From IMG/VR virus record IMGVR_UViG_3300033153_012554, positions 1 through 20,152 of that record: a stretch of 20,152 bases of DNA. The stretch is one strand, 5' to 3'. The stretch's first letter is position 1. The number at the start of each line of letters is the position of its first letter. The notes beneath the pieces were generated by a model. It made no database searches. It was not told where the DNA came from and saw only the letters and a program-made list of their open reading frames with translations. Below, piece by piece: positions 3 to 15,498 of the stretch. The DNA comes from a virus. Made by a program: the position numbers and the translations under genes.

Positions 3-785
3 TGTCGCTTTGGCGATATTTCTACCGAGCTGATTCAGATGTTTATGGCCGATCTGGCCCAGCGCCGCCATTTTATGCCCGCGACGATCCATAACTGGCA
101 CGCCTCAATCAGCTCGTTTTGCGAATATCTGATCAACTGCGGCCATTTGACCGTTAATCCGGCCCGACGGGTTAAGTTACCAAAAATAATTACCCCCCCG
201 CCGATATACCTCAACGCCGAGCAGGTGACCGAGACCCTGACCTGGGCCAAATATTATGGTTGCTACTTTGAGGTTCACACCGCGATCATGACCGGGCTGA
301 GGCGGTCGGAGTTGGCGGTCTTGCGTTGGGAGCACCTCGATTTGACACGCAAGATATTGACGGTGGTCAAAGGCAAAGGTGGTAAAACCCGGACGGTGTC
401 GATCGCCGATGAATTAGTCAATGAGCTGCGGTTCCTGACCCAGCCGGCGGGCCTTGTTTGGCCCAACCGGAAAGGAGTTGCCCACGGCCAGAGGCACTGG
501 GATCGCAAGATCGAGGAGGTCAAATCACGGATGCCGATGATTGTCGGCTGGCATACTTTTCGCCACACTTTCGCCTCGATTCTGGCCCAGCGGGGGGTCT
601 CGATATATAAAATCTCCGCCTGGCTGGGGCATTCTAAAGTCTCGACTACGGTGAGCTTTTATGCCAACCTGGCCCCTGAAGAATATGACCCCGACATTAA
701 CGCCCTGAGCTCACCGGCCGTCGGTATTGACCCACCAGCTCCCGAGCTGGCCACTGGTGGGTTTACCGACGGTTGGCAGGATTAG
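3..785 (+). CDS. int: Tyrosine recombinase (phage integrase), N-terminus cut by window edge
   Basis: Site-specific recombinase of the tyrosine recombinase family. The frame is open from base 3 without a convincing start, so the N-terminus lies outside the window; 260 residues are visible. Residue numbers count from the ATG at 39. The end of the SAM-like core-binding domain comes first (about 1-45), then the catalytic domain. The catalytic set is complete: Arg88 in TGLRRSEL, a beta-hairpin Lys in KGKGGKTR (113 or 116), His172 and Arg175 in HTFRHTF, His198 in LGH, and the nucleophile Tyr208 in VSFYANL. It should therefore be active. It faces the late operon, and its 3' end overlaps the last minus-strand gene by 23 bases. 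It probably integrates and excises this prophage, but it could belong to a neighbouring element because the left side is not visible. Confidence 0.95.
   Translation, partial: CRFGDISTELIQMFMADLAQRRHFMPATIHNWHASISSFCEYLINCGHLTVNPARRVKLPKIITPPPIYLNAEQVTETLTWAKYYGCYFEVHTAIMTGLRRSELAVLRWEHLDLTRKILTVVKGKGGKTRTVSIADELVNELRFLTQPAGLVWPNRKGVAHGQRHWDRKIEEVKSRMPMIVGWHTFRHTFASILAQRGVSIYKISAWLGHSKVSTTVSFYANLAPEEYDPDINALSSPAVGIDPPAPELATGGFTDGWQD
731..761. repeat. Inverted repeat at the 3' end of the integrase gene
   Basis: Eight-base arms, CCCACCAG (731-738) and CTGGTGGG (754-761), enclose 15 bases that hold a second small repeat, AGCT..AGCT (737-748). It lies within the last codons of the integrase and just beyond the end of the convergent gene. 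No U-tract follows on either strand, so it is not a canonical terminator. It could be an RNA 3'-end structure or part of a recombination site. Confidence 0.4.
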
Positions 786-3663: not shown

Positions 3664-4532
3664 TATTCCAGTCCTAAATTAGCGAATTTTGTTTCTCGAA
3701 AAATCTTGTTATATAGATAAACCGGCGTCCCACCTTTGGGTAAGGCCTGTCCGTTACCATCCAGCCACCGAGGCTGGTTTAGTATTTTACCTTCCTTACC
3801 GTTTTTATCCCGCTCCCGAAACATCTTATAGGTTATGGCCCCATATTCGGGATCATCCGGATCGGTAACCGTGCCGACAATTTTACGATAACCTTCATCG
3901 AGCCTTCGTTTTTCCCAACCGTCCCGGCGGCATTGAATCTCAATCCGGACCATAAATTCCATCCAGGTCAAACCGCTCCCGCTCACAGGCGATCCTTCAT
4001 AGGTTATTATCCGACACTGGCCTGGTTGAAACCCCCAGAAGCGATCACTGTTGACAGTGTTTATATATTCGAGGGCCTGATTATCGTCAAAGCCGATCAG
4101 CTTTTTCTCGAAGACCAGGACCAGGTCTTTGAATTCCCGCATCATCGGGGGGGTATAAAATTCATTGGCGCTATTAGTGAGTGGAATGCCATCAATATCC
4201 TGATCGATCGGCTCGCTGGACGTCGCAAAATGCCGCGACACCTTCCAATTCGTCGCGGTGCTCTGCATTGACTCATATATGACCTCGACCTCGTAATAAT
4301 GGGGGGAAATCGCCCGTGCATTCTTTTGGGTAACCGCAATATAGGGGGCGTTGGGGTGGGCCGAAAACCTGGCTGGTATGCCGTGGCTATCCTGGACGAT
4401 GACCGCCGCGGCCTTCGGGTCAAAGCCCTTGGAGAACAGAACCGTCCAGACCTGCGTATGGGTCAGGCCGCCACTGACCGACCAGCTCGTGCGGCGTTTG
4501 GTGGGGTCCTCTTTGACATCAATATCCGCCAT
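3663..4532 (-). CDS. Tail protein encoded directly after the tape measure
   Basis: A 289-residue protein of mixed alpha/beta character. I do not recognise the family. In siphophages the gene after the tape measure usually encodes the distal tail protein or a tail-tip component (lambda gpM position), and the length fits a distal tail protein. The N-terminal part (1-100) is beta-rich. The middle contains aromatic residues and a DRFWGFQPGQ stretch, and the C-terminus is polar with several Gly-Asn turns. It is joined to the tape measure gene by a TAATG overlap at 4532, so translation is probably coupled. The assignment to the tail tip rests on position alone. Confidence 0.75.
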   Translation of the reverse strand: MADIDVKEDPTKRRTSWSVSGGLTHTQVWTVLFSKGFDPKAAAVIVQDSHGIPARFSAHPNAPYIAVTQKNARAISPHYYEVEVIYESMQSTATNWKVSRHFATSSEPIDQDIDGIPLTNSANEFYTPPMMREFKDLVLVFEKKLIGFDDNQALEYINTVNSDRFWGFQPGQCRIITYEGSPVSGSGLTWMEFMVRIEIQCRRDGWEKRRLDEGYRKIVGTVTDPDDPEYGAITYKMFRERDKNGKEGKILNQPRWLDGNGQALPKGGTPVYLYNKIFRETKFANLGLE

Positions 4533-6127: not shown

Positions 6128-6156
6128 TTGTCATCGCGCAGCCTGCCGGCTATAAT
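6128..6156 (+). promoter_or_regulatory. Near-consensus sigma-70 promoter of the moron gene
   Basis: TTGTCA (6128-6133) and TATAAT (6151-6156) are separated by exactly 17 bases, which matches 11 of 12 consensus positions. Transcription would start near 6163, 30 bases before the ATG at 6194. A strong ribosome site AGGAG lies at 6181-6185. The -35 box overlaps the Shine-Dalgarno region of the divergent tape-measure gene. Confidence 0.85.
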
Positions 6157-6193: not shown

Positions 6194-6637
6194 ATGCAAA
6201 AGACGATTATTATCGCGGTTGTTGTCGGGATTCTCTGTTTCGCCGGTGGTTTTCTGGTAGGTAATTACCGGGTTAAGGTGGTAGTTGAACCGGTCAAGAT
6301 TGATGTTGCCGGGGCGATGCGAGAGTTTCAGGACGCCCTGGCGGATACCTCGGCAGAAAACATTAACAGTGAAAAACTTGATCGGCCGCATGGCTCTTGG
6401 TATGTTGGTGATAAAATGGATGATCGGTTTATCTCCCAGATTAAACAATTCATCAAAAGCAAAAAAGCGAAAACCAACAGTTACCAGCCCCCCGAATGTA
6501 TTATTGATATGATTACTAAACATAAAAACCAAGGTTTCTATTCCGTGAATCACGAAGAATCGGAATGTCTGACAATTTTTTTTGATTCCATGCGAGACGT
6601 AGTTGATTCTGTGGAGGCCATACTCTCTACTAACTAG
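6194..6637 (+). CDS. Moron: membrane-anchored protein of unknown function
   Basis: A 147-residue protein. It has a single N-terminal transmembrane segment (about residues 4-22, after MQK) and a polar domain of about 120 residues with a basic stretch (KSKKAK) near the middle. It may be an uncleaved membrane anchor with the domain outside, or a signal peptide; no lipobox is seen. The gene is on the opposite strand to the late operon and has its own promoter and ribosome site. It lies exactly between G-T and the tape measure, and it is A+T-rich. These are the marks of a moron expressed in the lysogen. Membrane-anchored morons often cause superinfection exclusion or alter the host surface; whether this one does is inference. 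Its stop TAG overlaps the G-T stop in a shared CTAG. Confidence 0.85.
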   Translation: MQKTIIIAVVVGILCFAGGFLVGNYRVKVVVEPVKIDVAGAMREFQDALADTSAENINSEKLDRPHGSWYVGDKMDDRFISQIKQFIKSKKAKTNSYQPPECIIDMITKHKNQGFYSVNHEESECLTIFFDSMRDVVDSVEAILSTN

Positions 6638-7343
6638 CTCAAGATTCCGAGTTTTGCCTTCCATTTATTCTGTTCTCCAAATATGAATTTACAGGCCGTC
6701 AAGAAGCCGTGGCTCTGGTCCAGGGCCCCGCCGGTGACCGGCGGTAAGCCTTTGGCGTAAAGCTCGGCATATTCGATGATCTCGAAGGTCTCACGATCAA
6801 CATAATCCAACGGACAGACGGTCAGGTCAAAATCACCGCGATTATCGCAATAATCACAACCGCCGCCGCCACAGACTACGCAGGGAAACCCGACGGGCGA
6901 GTGTCCGCTGGGTTGGTCTCGGCATTTTCCAGGTCCGGGGCAACTTTTGCAGATCTGTCCGAATCGGAAGGCGACGGCGACTCTAATTTTTTTTTATCAT
7001 CAATCGAGGGCGTTTGGGCCATGATCGCCTGCATGATCTCGACCGCCTCGGCCGGGGTTAATATCTCATCGAGTTCGAGATGATCTTTGTCAAAGATGAT
7101 CGGCTCATCAGCCCGATTGTTGAGATTTTCCCAGCCAACCAGGCCAACCTCGATGATCCGATAGACCGCATCGATCGCCCCGACGCCGGTGATCATCTGG
7201 TCTAAATCATCACTAACGGCGGCCAGTTTTTTCCATTGCCGGCCGTTCAGATATCTATAAATGAACGTCGGCGGATGTTTTTTGGCCCGGTCAGTGGCCA
7301 GAACTACCGGATAAGTCGTTTGCGGGTCTAGTGTTATGGGCAT
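6634..7343 (-). CDS. Tail assembly chaperone G-T, made by -1 frameshift at A9
   Basis: The reading frame enters at the G start (7343), runs to codon 119, slips -1 in the A9 run (6995-6987), then continues from 6987 to a TAG at 6636-6634. The product would be 236 residues; lambda G-T has 279. The extension of 117 residues carries a cysteine cluster (extension residues 13, 16, 22, 36, 39, 44, 47, 58) with three CxxC pairs and a GGGG linker, suggesting a zinc-binding T domain. Its C-terminus (GGALDQ...F.TACKFI..E.NKWK) resembles the Q..F..A...I..E.N.W ending common in tail chaperone second ORFs (recognised by pattern, not by search). G-T would bridge tape measure and tail tube protein during assembly. 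No independent start with a ribosome site is seen for the extension. Confidence 0.8.
6876..7343 (-). CDS. Tail assembly chaperone G, unshifted product
   Basis: A 155-residue acidic protein encoded between tail tube and tape measure, where lambda has G. Residues 1-115 look like a folded domain with helices. After Lys117-119 the unshifted frame gives only 36 low-complexity residues rich in Ser, Pro, Asp and Ala, ending at 6876. The start is ATG 7343 with a strong AGGAA ribosome site. It coats or binds the tape measure protein during tail assembly, in a defined ratio to G-T. It overlaps the small upstream gene by 53 bases. Confidence 0.8.
   Translation of the reverse strand: MPITLDPQTTYPVVLATDRAKKHPPTFIYRYLNGRQWKKLAAVSDDLDQMITGVGAIDAVYRIIEVGLVGWENLNNRADEPIIFDKDHLELDEILTPAEAVEIMQAIMAQTPSIDDKKKLESPSPSDSDRSAKVAPDLENAETNPADTRPSGFPA
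6987..6995 (-). promoter_or_regulatory. A9 slippery site for -1 programmed frameshift
   Basis: Nine A in the mRNA sense, exactly aligned as codons 117-119 (AAA AAA AAA) of G, give an A-AAA-AAA slippery heptamer. The -1 frame beyond it is open for 117 codons. A short hairpin (TCCG-ATT-CGGA) follows about 20 bases later as a possible weak stimulator. Polymerase slippage on A9 is an alternative mechanism with the same result. Confidence 0.8.
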
Positions 7344-7497
7344 CAGCTTTCCTTTCGTCTTTGAGATATAGTTTTTGGGTCGCCGGGTCGATCGAATTCC
7401 AGATGATCATGATCCGGTCATCGTCGAGGTTTTTGGCCCCGCCGTGTCGTTTTTCGATCGCGGCCCTGATAGTTTTAAAATTTGTAGTTGTTGCCAT
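7291..7497 (-). CDS. Small protein between tail tube and G
   Basis: A 68-residue charged protein (MATTTNFKTIRAAIEKRHGG at the start) that I do not recognise. The ATG at 7497 is preferred over a TTG at 7548, which would lie before a GC-rich structure. A GGGGGGAT tract is the only ribosome-site-like element, about 14 bases upstream and partly within a possible hairpin (7512-7533). Its last 17 codons overlap the G start in another frame, so translation may be coupled. It may be a small tail chaperone or connector accessory; there is no direct evidence. Confidence 0.6.
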   Translation of the reverse strand: MATTTNFKTIRAAIEKRHGGAKNLDDDRIMIIWNSIDPATQKLYLKDERKADAHNTRPANDLSGSSGH

Positions 7498-7608: not shown

Positions 7609-8547
7609 TCAGGTTACGGTCAGGGACCATTCATCGTCGCCGTTATCTATATTGTCAATATTACACTGGCCAACCACCTCGTCGGTCTGGACACCTTCAC
7701 GATCGCCCGGATCGATCGAGCGGTACTGGAATTTGGGCACCGCAAAGGCCATGTTTCGGGTCCCGTTGGACACGGTCAGGGCCAGGGCCACCTCGGTGCC
7801 GGCCAGAAAGTCTCCGAAAATATCGTACCCGGCCACCAGGTCCGATTCCGGATCGATCGTCCAGGTGGGGTCCCGATCGGTGATCATGGCGTAGGCCAGG
7901 CCGCCGGCGGCCGCGGCATCGGGCCGCAAAATGACCTGATTGCCCAGATCGAACTCGAATGTATTGATCTTGAGGGCCTCGGTAGCCAGGGTAAAGGCGC
8001 CACTGGCGTTGTCCAGTTTGAGCGGTAACACCGAGGTCGGGGCCCAGGTGGGCAGGGCGCCATCGGCGGGGGCCTGCCAGATGCCGGTGAATTCGAAATT
8101 GATCCAGACCCGCTCTCCGGCGACGCCTCTAAATTTGGCGTTCCCCATTGCCCCAACTAGTTGTTTTTTCTTGCCATCCTCAAAGGCGGCGATCGTGACG
8201 GTTTTCTGATCCGCATGGACGGACGTGGGTTTATAGACCTCAGCGTCCTGCTTGACCCCGCAGGCGGTTAAGAGGGCCACCAGGCCGAGGTCCAGGGCCG
8301 CCCCCGCCGTGGGGCGGAGTTCGACATCGAAGGAACACTTTCCGGCTCGGGGCCCGTCGATGATACCCGAAGAGGTATGGCCCAGGAACTTGCCGGCGGC
8401 CTTGCGGGAAGTGAAATTGAGGTCCGGGGTGAGGGATTGATTGAAGGCCAGGATGTCGGTATCGACGGCGATCAAAGTCCCTTTAGTGGTCTCGACCTTG
8501 ACCTGGATCACTCGTTTGCGGGTGAGTAGGGGGGCTGAAAGTGCCAT
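7609..8547 (-). CDS. Major tail (tube) protein, lambda gpV role
   Basis: A 312-residue beta-rich protein placed between the tail terminator and chaperone genes, as the tube subunit of siphophages is. The N-terminal part (MALSAPLLTRKRVIQVKVET) is the usual start of tail tube proteins, which often begin with an instruction to read a reference value (E.T.GT). The middle shows alternating strands and a GPRAGKCSF stretch. The C-terminal part has an ALALTVSNG strand series. The start ATG 8547 has AGGAG ten bases upstream, a strong site fitting high expression. The gene ends just before a hairpin. Length is above lambda V (246). Confidence 0.85.
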   Translation of the reverse strand: MALSAPLLTRKRVIQVKVETTKGTLIAVDTDILAFNQSLTPDLNFTSRKAAGKFLGHTSSGIIDGPRAGKCSFDVELRPTAGAALDLGLVALLTACGVKQDAEVYKPTSVHADQKTVTIAAFEDGKKKQLVGAMGNAKFRGVAGERVWINFEFTGIWQAPADGALPTWAPTSVLPLKLDNASGAFTLATEALKINTFEFDLGNQVILRPDAAAAGGLAYAMITDRDPTWTIDPESDLVAGYDIFGDFLAGTEVALALTVSNGTRNMAFAVPKFQYRSIDPGDREGVQTDEVVGQCNIDNIDNGDDEWSLTVT

Positions 8548-13371: not shown

Positions 13372-15498
13372 TTATGCAGTATTCTTTTGCATCCCGCGGA
13401 AGTCCAGGGCTTTGACGCCGACGTCTATATAGACCAGGAAGATCACGCCCAGACCATTGGGTGCGGCATTATAACGCTCGACACTCGGGGCCTGTTTGCC
13501 GTTCAGGAAGCTGACCTCGATGGTGTCAACGTCACCCGGCCGCCCGGTGACATACCAGGTAGTAGTTGAGTAACCGGTATAGGTCGTATTACTCAAGCGC
13601 GACTCGATCACCGGCTCGAGCATACCGGCGAAAACATTTTTCGCCGGTGCCCGGGCAGCGCTATTACCTGTACCGGTAGCGACCAGTAGCGGAGCGGTGT
13701 AAAACTCGCGGGCGGTGATCTCCAATTCGGGCGGTACCAATAAATATGCCGGCTCGACATCGATCGGCTGTTCGTCTTTGTCGGTTTGCTTGCGGAAAGC
13801 CTTCAGGGCCGTGGCCAGGCCCGTCTTGGCCAGGGCGGTCGAGGTATTCAGATTGTTATGGTCGGCGTGGAATAATGCCACTGAATCATCGACCATGGCC
13901 CCATTAGCCAGCAAGTGGGTATAGACCAGGTTGGCAACCGTCTGACCGGCCCGATTACCCATAGCTTGTGGGGTCCGGGTAAAGGCGCCCAGGTCATCGT
14001 TAATGATGTCCTGGCGAGTGACGCCGAATTGTTTGGCGTAGGTACCAATTTTGAAGGTCTCATACTCTTCCTGGGCGGTACCGTGTTTGACTGCGCCGCT
14101 ATTGCCCACCAGTTCCAGGGAGCCCGTATCGGTCATACGGACCCGGGTCTGGAGCTTAAAGTCATTGACCGAGCCGACGGAGCACCATTTTCGCCAGGTG
14201 GCACTGGCCAGGTTATAGCCGCGCAGGGCGGCCTTATTGGCCACCGCCCCGAGTAATTGTGGTAAGGTCGAGGACGAAAAGGCCGCCCTGATCACTGCCT
14301 CACGACCGTGGGGAACCTGTAAACCTTCGAGTTGTAGGGATCGGACCGCCAGGTCCGTCATCGACAGATCGCGAAACTTATCGGCGGTCTCGCAACGCTG
14401 CTCATCGTACTGCTCTATCAAAAATTCATCATCACAACCGGCCCGTAAAAGCATGGCACATTCGAGGTCCTCAGCCACGGCCGCCCGGCTGTTAGTGATG
14501 ATTGCCGGGGACCCCAGGGGCGATTTGTTGGCGCGTACTTCCTTGAGAAAGATGCCCTGGGCATCTTCGACGCTGCATTGCTGATCTTCCAGGCATCGCT
14601 GGAGTATTTCACCGGAAATATCGGCACCGGCCAAATCGCGGATTTGTTTTTGTCGATCGATCTCGGCGGCGACGGCGGCCTCGGCGACCTTCTTATCGGC
14701 GGCGATCCGGTCGGCGGCGGTAACGGCGGCGGGTTTTGTTTCGGAGGTTTTATCAACTTTTTCTCCCATCAATTCAAAGTCAGCCGCCAGGGCTGAGCGT
14801 TGGGCTTCGGAGAGGGATTCAGGGTCGATACCACGTTCTTTTAGCCATTTCTCAAACATAATTTTTTTTCTCCAATGTTCGGTAGAGTGGATAATTTTTT
14901 CGGCGTTATTGTCCGTCCGATTTGTCGCCTGGTCATCGGCGGGTATAATCACCGCCGAGTTCTCTATAATTTGGTATTTGGTGGTGATTCGCAGGGGCAT
15001 ATCATCGTCGGCGGTATAAAGAACGCCACGGACGGTCCGGGATTTGCCCGGCTCGATGGTAATTGCCCCGCCCTTTAAGATTCGATAACCGATCGAATTA
15101 GTATTGAGATGCCCCTCTTGGGTGAGGGTCCAGGCACGCTGGCCCTCGGGGGTGTTAGCAAAGATGTTTTTTGCGACTATTTTATCACCTTCGACACGGA
15201 GATCGACAGTCGATCCGATCTGGGCGGCCAGCAAACCGCGGTCATGGGAGTCTAAAAACGGAACCTTGTCGGGGAGCTGGGCGCCGGCGGTTAGGAGTAT
15301 TTCGCGAACCGGCGACCAGGAGCGCATATCGAAGACCTCAACCGGTTGCTCGGTGGCGATCACCGCCTCGACCGATCTCTCTTTTTCGTTTAAGGATTCG
15401 GCCCGATATGAATAATTACGGCAAGTCAGGTCCCGGTGCATCTGACCGCGGGTGTCGATGGTCTTAATTTGGGTAGCTTTTATTTTTGATCTTTTCAT
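13372..15498 (-). CDS. Fused prohead protease and Mu gpT-like major capsid protein
   Basis: A 708-residue fusion. Residues about 20-195 are a prohead protease of the U35/HK97 type: the His of FLDSHDRG (85), the Ser of NTNSIGYR (135) and the closing IIENSAVIIPADDQA motif (about 177-191). Residues 214-325 are charged and helical with Ala/Lys/Glu repeats, like a scaffolding delta domain. From about 335 on comes the capsid, with the Mu gpT-like block FKIGTYAKQFGVTRQDIIND (482-501) and LFHADHNNL (542-550). It would self-assemble and be cut by its own protease. The start ATG 15498 overlaps the portal stop (ATGA) and has AAGGA upstream. Residue 214 is a strong internal start. The fusion depends on an A8 run at 14869-14862; see findings. 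Confidence 0.85.
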   Translation of the reverse strand: MKRSKIKATQIKTIDTRGQMHRDLTCRNYSYRAESLNEKERSVEAVIATEQPVEVFDMRSWSPVREILLTAGAQLPDKVPFLDSHDRGLLAAQIGSTVDLRVEGDKIVAKNIFANTPEGQRAWTLTQEGHLNTNSIGYRILKGGAITIEPGKSRTVRGVLYTADDDMPLRITTKYQIIENSAVIIPADDQATNRTDNNAEKIIHSTEHWRKKIMFEKWLKERGIDPESLSEAQRSALAADFELMGEKVDKTSETKPAAVTAADRIAADKKVAEAAVAAEIDRQKQIRDLAGADISGEILQRCLEDQQCSVEDAQGIFLKEVRANKSPLGSPAIITNSRAAVAEDLECAMLLRAGCDDEFLIEQYDEQRCETADKFRDLSMTDLAVRSLQLEGLQVPHGREAVIRAAFSSSTLPQLLGAVANKAALRGYNLASATWRKWCSVGSVNDFKLQTRVRMTDTGSLELVGNSGAVKHGTAQEEYETFKIGTYAKQFGVTRQDIINDDLGAFTRTPQAMGNRAGQTVANLVYTHLLANGAMVDDSVALFHADHNNLNTSTALAKTGLATALKAFRKQTDKDEQPIDVEPAYLLVPPELEITAREFYTAPLLVATGTGNSAARAPAKNVFAGMLEPVIESRLSNTTYTGYSTTTWYVTGRPGDVDTIEVSFLNGKQAPSVERYNAAPNGLGVIFLVYIDVGVKALDFRGMQKNTA
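14857..14873 (-). promoter_or_regulatory. Internal ribosome site and ATG at the protease-capsid junction
   Basis: GGAG (plus 14873-14870) lies ten bases before an ATG (14859-14857) that is in frame at residue 214 of the fusion. This would give a separate 495-residue scaffold-capsid protein, comparable with Nu3 nested in lambda C. Most of the spacer is an A8 run. Confidence 0.7.

Follow-up and report, generated by a model that had tools for sequence, protein, structure and literature searches.

Genes between the tail tube and the tape measure protein

We analysed a stretch of viral DNA of 20,152 nucleotides, here called the window (positions 1 to 20,152 of IMG/VR record IMGVR_UViG_3300033153_012554), in which the following features lie at or near the interval between the tail tube and tape measure genes:

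7609..8547, minus strand: tail tube protein (Phage_tube_2, Pfam E 1.4e-7; PHROG 290)
7291..7497, minus strand: small conserved ORF of 68 amino acids that follows the tail tube gene and precedes G, also found in relatives (L008 2482..2661)
7343..6876, minus strand: G, putative tail assembly chaperone of 155 amino acids (ORF; 22-sequence alignment A6; AF2; hhalign)
6995..6987, minus strand: A9 slippery run on G codons 117-119 (AAA AAA AAA), with A AAA AAA in register
6987..6637, minus strand, stop at 6636..6634: T, the -1 frame extension, 117 codons and a stop (A5 alignment of 23 sequences; AF2)
6814..6951, minus strand: cysteine site 1 of T, C13, C16, C22 and C58 (C-P), found in all relatives, cultured phages included
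6847..6882, minus strand: cysteine site 2 of T, C36, C39, C44 and C47 (CxxC-GGGG-CxxC), found in the lineage of the window
6649..6795, minus strand: C-terminal helical part of T, whose GLPPVTGGALDQ loop (PPVxGGALDQ) is the best conserved motif (alignment, AF2)
6194..6637, plus strand: gene between T and the tape measure gene, 147 amino acids with an N-terminal membrane segment
4532..6115, minus strand: putative tape measure protein gene, from its position and its similarity to the ORF directly after T in relatives

The first-pass annotation had likened this locus to the G/G-T device of lambda on the basis of product length and position, and this placement holds: G and T occupy the interval from tube to tape measure, and the predicted fold of G is like that of tail assembly chaperones. 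G had no meaningful match in Pfam, PHROGs or NCBIfam. The AF2 model of G (pLDDT 83) matched BFVD structures in Foldseek at E 4e-4 to 4e-3, with annotated tail assembly chaperones among the best matches at a TM of ~0.4-0.5, which is a moderate likeness. The model points, with moderate confidence, to a tail assembly chaperone fold. The small ORF upstream of G carries the conserved pattern R.AI...GG....DD.I..IW...D..TQ..YL and gave no family match. The tape measure candidate had no match in Pfam, and as search bait the tape measure recovered no relatives.

The first-pass annotation overlooked the opposite-strand gene that separates T from the tape measure gene in the window. This gene resembles a moron, an accessory gene inserted into the locus, since the tape measure gene directly follows T in the relatives L002 and L008. 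A sigma-70-like promoter (11/12) lies at 6128..6156 in front of it. Elsewhere in the window, the prohead protease and major capsid protein are fused in one ORF of 708 amino acids (13372..15498, minus strand), which matches NCBIfam NF045541 below its curated cut-off. A tyrosine recombinase is encoded beside the tail genes but on the other strand (3..785, plus strand), and suggests that the phage may be temperate.

The probable frameshift junction in the window and its relatives

The A9 run falls exactly on G codons 117-119, as had been noted from the sequence, and the expected number of such runs per strand of the window is 0.03; a synonymous form of the run would be AAGAAGAAA. After a -1 slip on the run, reading continues ATT AGA GTC... 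for 117 codons to 6634, so that the length of 236 amino acids claimed for G-T is borne out (119 + 117). The -1 frame opens just two codons upstream of the slip. It was also said to have no start of its own, and we agree: no ATG, GTG or TTG is present for this frame near its opening in the window, and the sole in-frame start listed for T is a TTG at 6810, just past the last clustered cysteine. When the T stretch was shuffled with its dinucleotides preserved, 37 of 5000 shuffles (~0.7%) had no stop. The open -1 frame is by itself modest evidence, and comparison with relatives therefore had to decide.

Searches of viral contigs, genome contigs and isolated phages with the single T sequence of the window gave no matches. 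With the tail tube protein of the window as the query, we found three IMG/VR contigs in which G and T overlap likewise. The T of one of these (L001) is 45% identical to that of the window and has all eight clustered cysteines and the same GATAAAAAAAAAT site. An alignment search added L008/L009, and a second search, from a three-sequence alignment, gave 93 related places, 80 of which were kept. The three-sequence alignment alone reached the rest of the T family, and genome contigs scanned with it gave no matches. In all, 83 G-T loci were compared, the window included.

Across the 83 loci T lies in the same frame, -1 to G, and in 79 of them the distance from the slip-defined start of T to its first cysteine is 13 codons. 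A slippery heptamer stands in register at the junction of every locus except L029, in which an A10 replaces the A9 (~3991..4000), G and T stand in a +1/-2 relation and G is out of frame; this A10 may be an assembly error or a real variant. Runs of A8-A9 hold a heptamer in some register anyway, and the register test is strong for non-homopolymeric sites only, which among these loci are A AAA AAC in two contigs and G GGA AAA in one. In L070-type loci G stops on the slippery run. A side observation in L070 and L076-L088 is that ATGATG in the T frame overlaps the G stop after A8, and frameshift and restart could both feed T in these loci. In the 111-residue clade G stops at the slip, so that the downstream sequence codes for T alone. 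The median dN/dS of T in this clade is 0.048 over 208 pairs, and by this estimate T in one subclade, the group in which a stem-loop also follows the slip (below), is under strong purifying selection.

We also examined phages with related tail tubes between their tube and tape measure genes. Seven isolates, RcZahn, RcDurkin, RHph_I4, vB_RleS_L338C, JP1, P24 and Mae-JY22, from the host genera Rhodobacter, Rhizobium, Agrobacterium, Alteromonas and Microcystis, have T in the -1 frame and, in register, one of the textbook heptamers A AAA AAC, A AAA AAG or G GGA AAC. Their proteins are homologous to those of the window family by hhalign (E 6.6e-11 for T and 3e-13 for G). They carry four T cysteines in the pattern C-x2-C-x5-9-C...C-P, that is, site 1 only, whereas the window has two four-cysteine sites. 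The T frames of Vibrio ZX4290 and Microcystis yong1 have no cysteine motif. The authors of the RcZahn description saw no clear frameshift signal (PMC8601537), whereas we find A AAA AAC in register at position 4413 of this locus (L102). Loci and isolates together thus use A AAA AAA, A AAA AAC, A AAA AAG, G GGA AAA and G GGA AAC. The frameshift site, then, recurs in the homologues, which is where the first-pass annotation had proposed that its conservation be sought. This conservation of the T frame across relatives is decisive for the reality of the frame.

In the clade with an A8 site a stem-loop lies 3' of the slip, with z scores of -4 to -5 in L033, L044 and L070. In 24 sequences of this clade 94% of cells in the stem-loop are paired and 18 are double-change cells; the double changes fall in 4 of 16 pairs, and the covariation score was reached by none of 500 shuffles. 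A covarying structure at this place favours slippage by ribosomes as the mechanism of the family, and the window would rely on its A9.

Runs of nine A can be slippery for bacterial RNA polymerase, and the T frame could be reached by transcriptional slippage on the A9, in which the polymerase adds or drops an A and the same mixture of G and G-T results. The downstream sequence of the window also favours this route, as no significant stimulatory structure was found after its slip site (z +0.6 to +1.7). However, the homologous sites A AAA AAC, A AAA AAG, G GGA AAA and G GGA AAC suit tandem tRNA slippage and not slippage on a homopolymer, and the covarying stem-loop of one clade counts against it as well. 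We regard transcriptional slippage as quite improbable.

Even less probable, and in our view very unlikely, is a T that is started separately and coupled to G via overlapping stop and start codons. Such an arrangement could be read from the G of L070 and L076-L088, which ends in AAATGATG with an ATG in the T frame, from the ATG at the G stop of RcZahn and from the early in-frame start in the T of RHph_I4. Against this, no start precedes the cysteines in the window, L001, L008 or P24, the residues coded ahead of any such start are conserved, and the slippery heptamers are retained even where a start exists. Ribosomal frameshifting is the reading we favour.

The cysteine sites of T

A structure prediction of T had been recommended with the original claim. 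The AF2 model, built with 23 sequences, has a pLDDT of 89.7 and a pTM of 0.80, and Foldseek found no match to it below E 0.05 in the PDB or BFVD. Pfam, PHROGs and NCBIfam likewise gave no meaningful match for T.

The cysteines rank with the most conserved residues. The three CxxC pairs of the first-pass annotation are all there (C13/C16, C36/C39 and C44/C47), but the conserved C22 and C58 were missed, and the true count is two sets of four. It also overlooked that the core set is common to the isolated phages. Site 1, C-x2-C-x4-8-C...C-P, is constant in the T family, and site 2 has the pattern C-x2-C-x4-C-x2-C. Both sites (4+4 cysteines) are present in 80 of the 83 loci and site 1 alone in three (L013/L014 and L025). 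Where site 2 is missing, in these three loci and in all seven isolated phages, it is missing as a unit. The nearest neighbour of the window in the tree is L023, which is weakly supported. L013 is placed among two-site sequences, which suggests, with weak tree support, that site 2 may have been lost there.

Two sets of four cysteines with joint absence are the pattern expected from two independent metal sites. Most likely, each of the two sites would hold one metal centre, zinc or, for site 1, an Fe-S cluster, folding the T domain. The cysteines might instead form disulphides or an inert structural core with no metal, and small proteins can indeed be stabilised by disulphides. This is unlikely, however, given that the cytoplasm is reducing and that the layout is usual for metal sites: CxxC pairs come in sets of four with one set absent as a unit, and insertions change the distance from pair to pair but leave the pairs themselves, as in L026, L032 and L060, where insertions lie within site 2 and its four cysteines are still in place.

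Site 2 also has the look of a DnaJ-type zinc ribbon such as that of BSD2, with its CxxC-(N)GxG-CxxC. PDB profiles of this type matched only at E 0.16-0.27, with no Pfam match, and the ribbon may be no more than a look-alike. In the open-access literature we found no relevant report that links tail assembly chaperones to cysteine, zinc or Fe-S.

Proposed role of G and G-T

Lambda G-T binds the tape measure protein through its G part, as G does, and the tube subunit through T; neither protein stays in the finished tail (PMC5009743). TP901-1 makes no tails when gpG or gpT is lost, and a fixed fusion leads to non-infectious particles (PMC4493119). The locus in the window resembles the lambda pair (Levin 1993; Xu, Hendrix and Duda 2004, 2013, 2014; reviewed in PMC5009743) in lying between the tail tube and tape measure genes, in a -1 slip close to the 3' end of the G gene, in a T frame that has no start of its own, in comparable sizes and in the fold class of G. 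In contrast, neither G nor T has detectable similarity to its lambda counterpart, and kinship of T with lambda gpT was rejected by hhalign (probability 0.1%). The T of lambda has no cysteines whereas that of the window has two four-cysteine sites, and the slip site is of the GGGAAAG type in lambda and nine A in the window.

A second known family of T extensions, DUF1799 (PF08809), occurs in Synechococcus S-LBS1, Dhillonvirus, eiAU and others at the same place and, by position, with the same role, and S-LBS1 shares its tail tube family with the window. These extensions have no CxxC and no profile similarity to the T of the window. Assignment of T to DUF1799 was rejected, with no Pfam match and an hhalign probability of 0.4%.

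Taken together, we put the probability at roughly 0.87 that the locus encodes a tail assembly chaperone pair of the lambda type, produced through -1 programmed ribosomal frameshifting, with a T of an undescribed cysteine family. The majority of ribosomes would make G, and a minority would slip back one base on AAA AAA AAA to make G-T. Since the anatomy is the same as in lambda, the roles would be the same: G would coat the tape measure protein, the T part of G-T would recruit tail tube subunits and so start polymerisation around it, and G and G-T would leave after tail assembly. The sequences themselves show that the frame and the slip register are conserved, that T is under selection, that G and T have homologues, what folds they are predicted to have and that the cysteines are inherited together; from these we infer the actual frameshifting, the metal binding and the binding partners. 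It is conceivable, but doubtful, that site 1 is an oxygen-sensitive Fe-S cluster, or that both sites hold a labile metal, and that the host's metal or redox state governs when tail tube polymerisation starts. If this were true, tail assembly would be gated by a cofactor that sits solely on the rare frameshift product.

G/G-T as a device is already known; what appears to be new, as judged from sequence comparison, is a T family with no relative in Pfam, PHROGs or the PDB. As had been predicted, standard annotation misses it. The public labels of T in the isolates are hypothetical or tail assembly chaperone, and five of the seven are annotated without the full cysteine motif or without T: the T of P24 has no annotation, and in RcDurkin, L338C, JP1 and Mae-JY22 the annotated gene begins past three or four of the cysteines (the five cases are at L103 5073, L106 4390, L108 4298, L006 5505 and L007 5272..5567). 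The cysteines of T are often missed because the frameshift takes its N-terminal part out of the predicted genes.

T domains in general are diverse and poorly characterised. Here a large undescribed T family spans uncultured phages and isolates from five host genera, and its invariant four-cysteine site suggests that the protein proposed to begin tail polymerisation carries a metal cofactor. The cultured relatives open the role of T to assay, through cysteine mutants and metal content.
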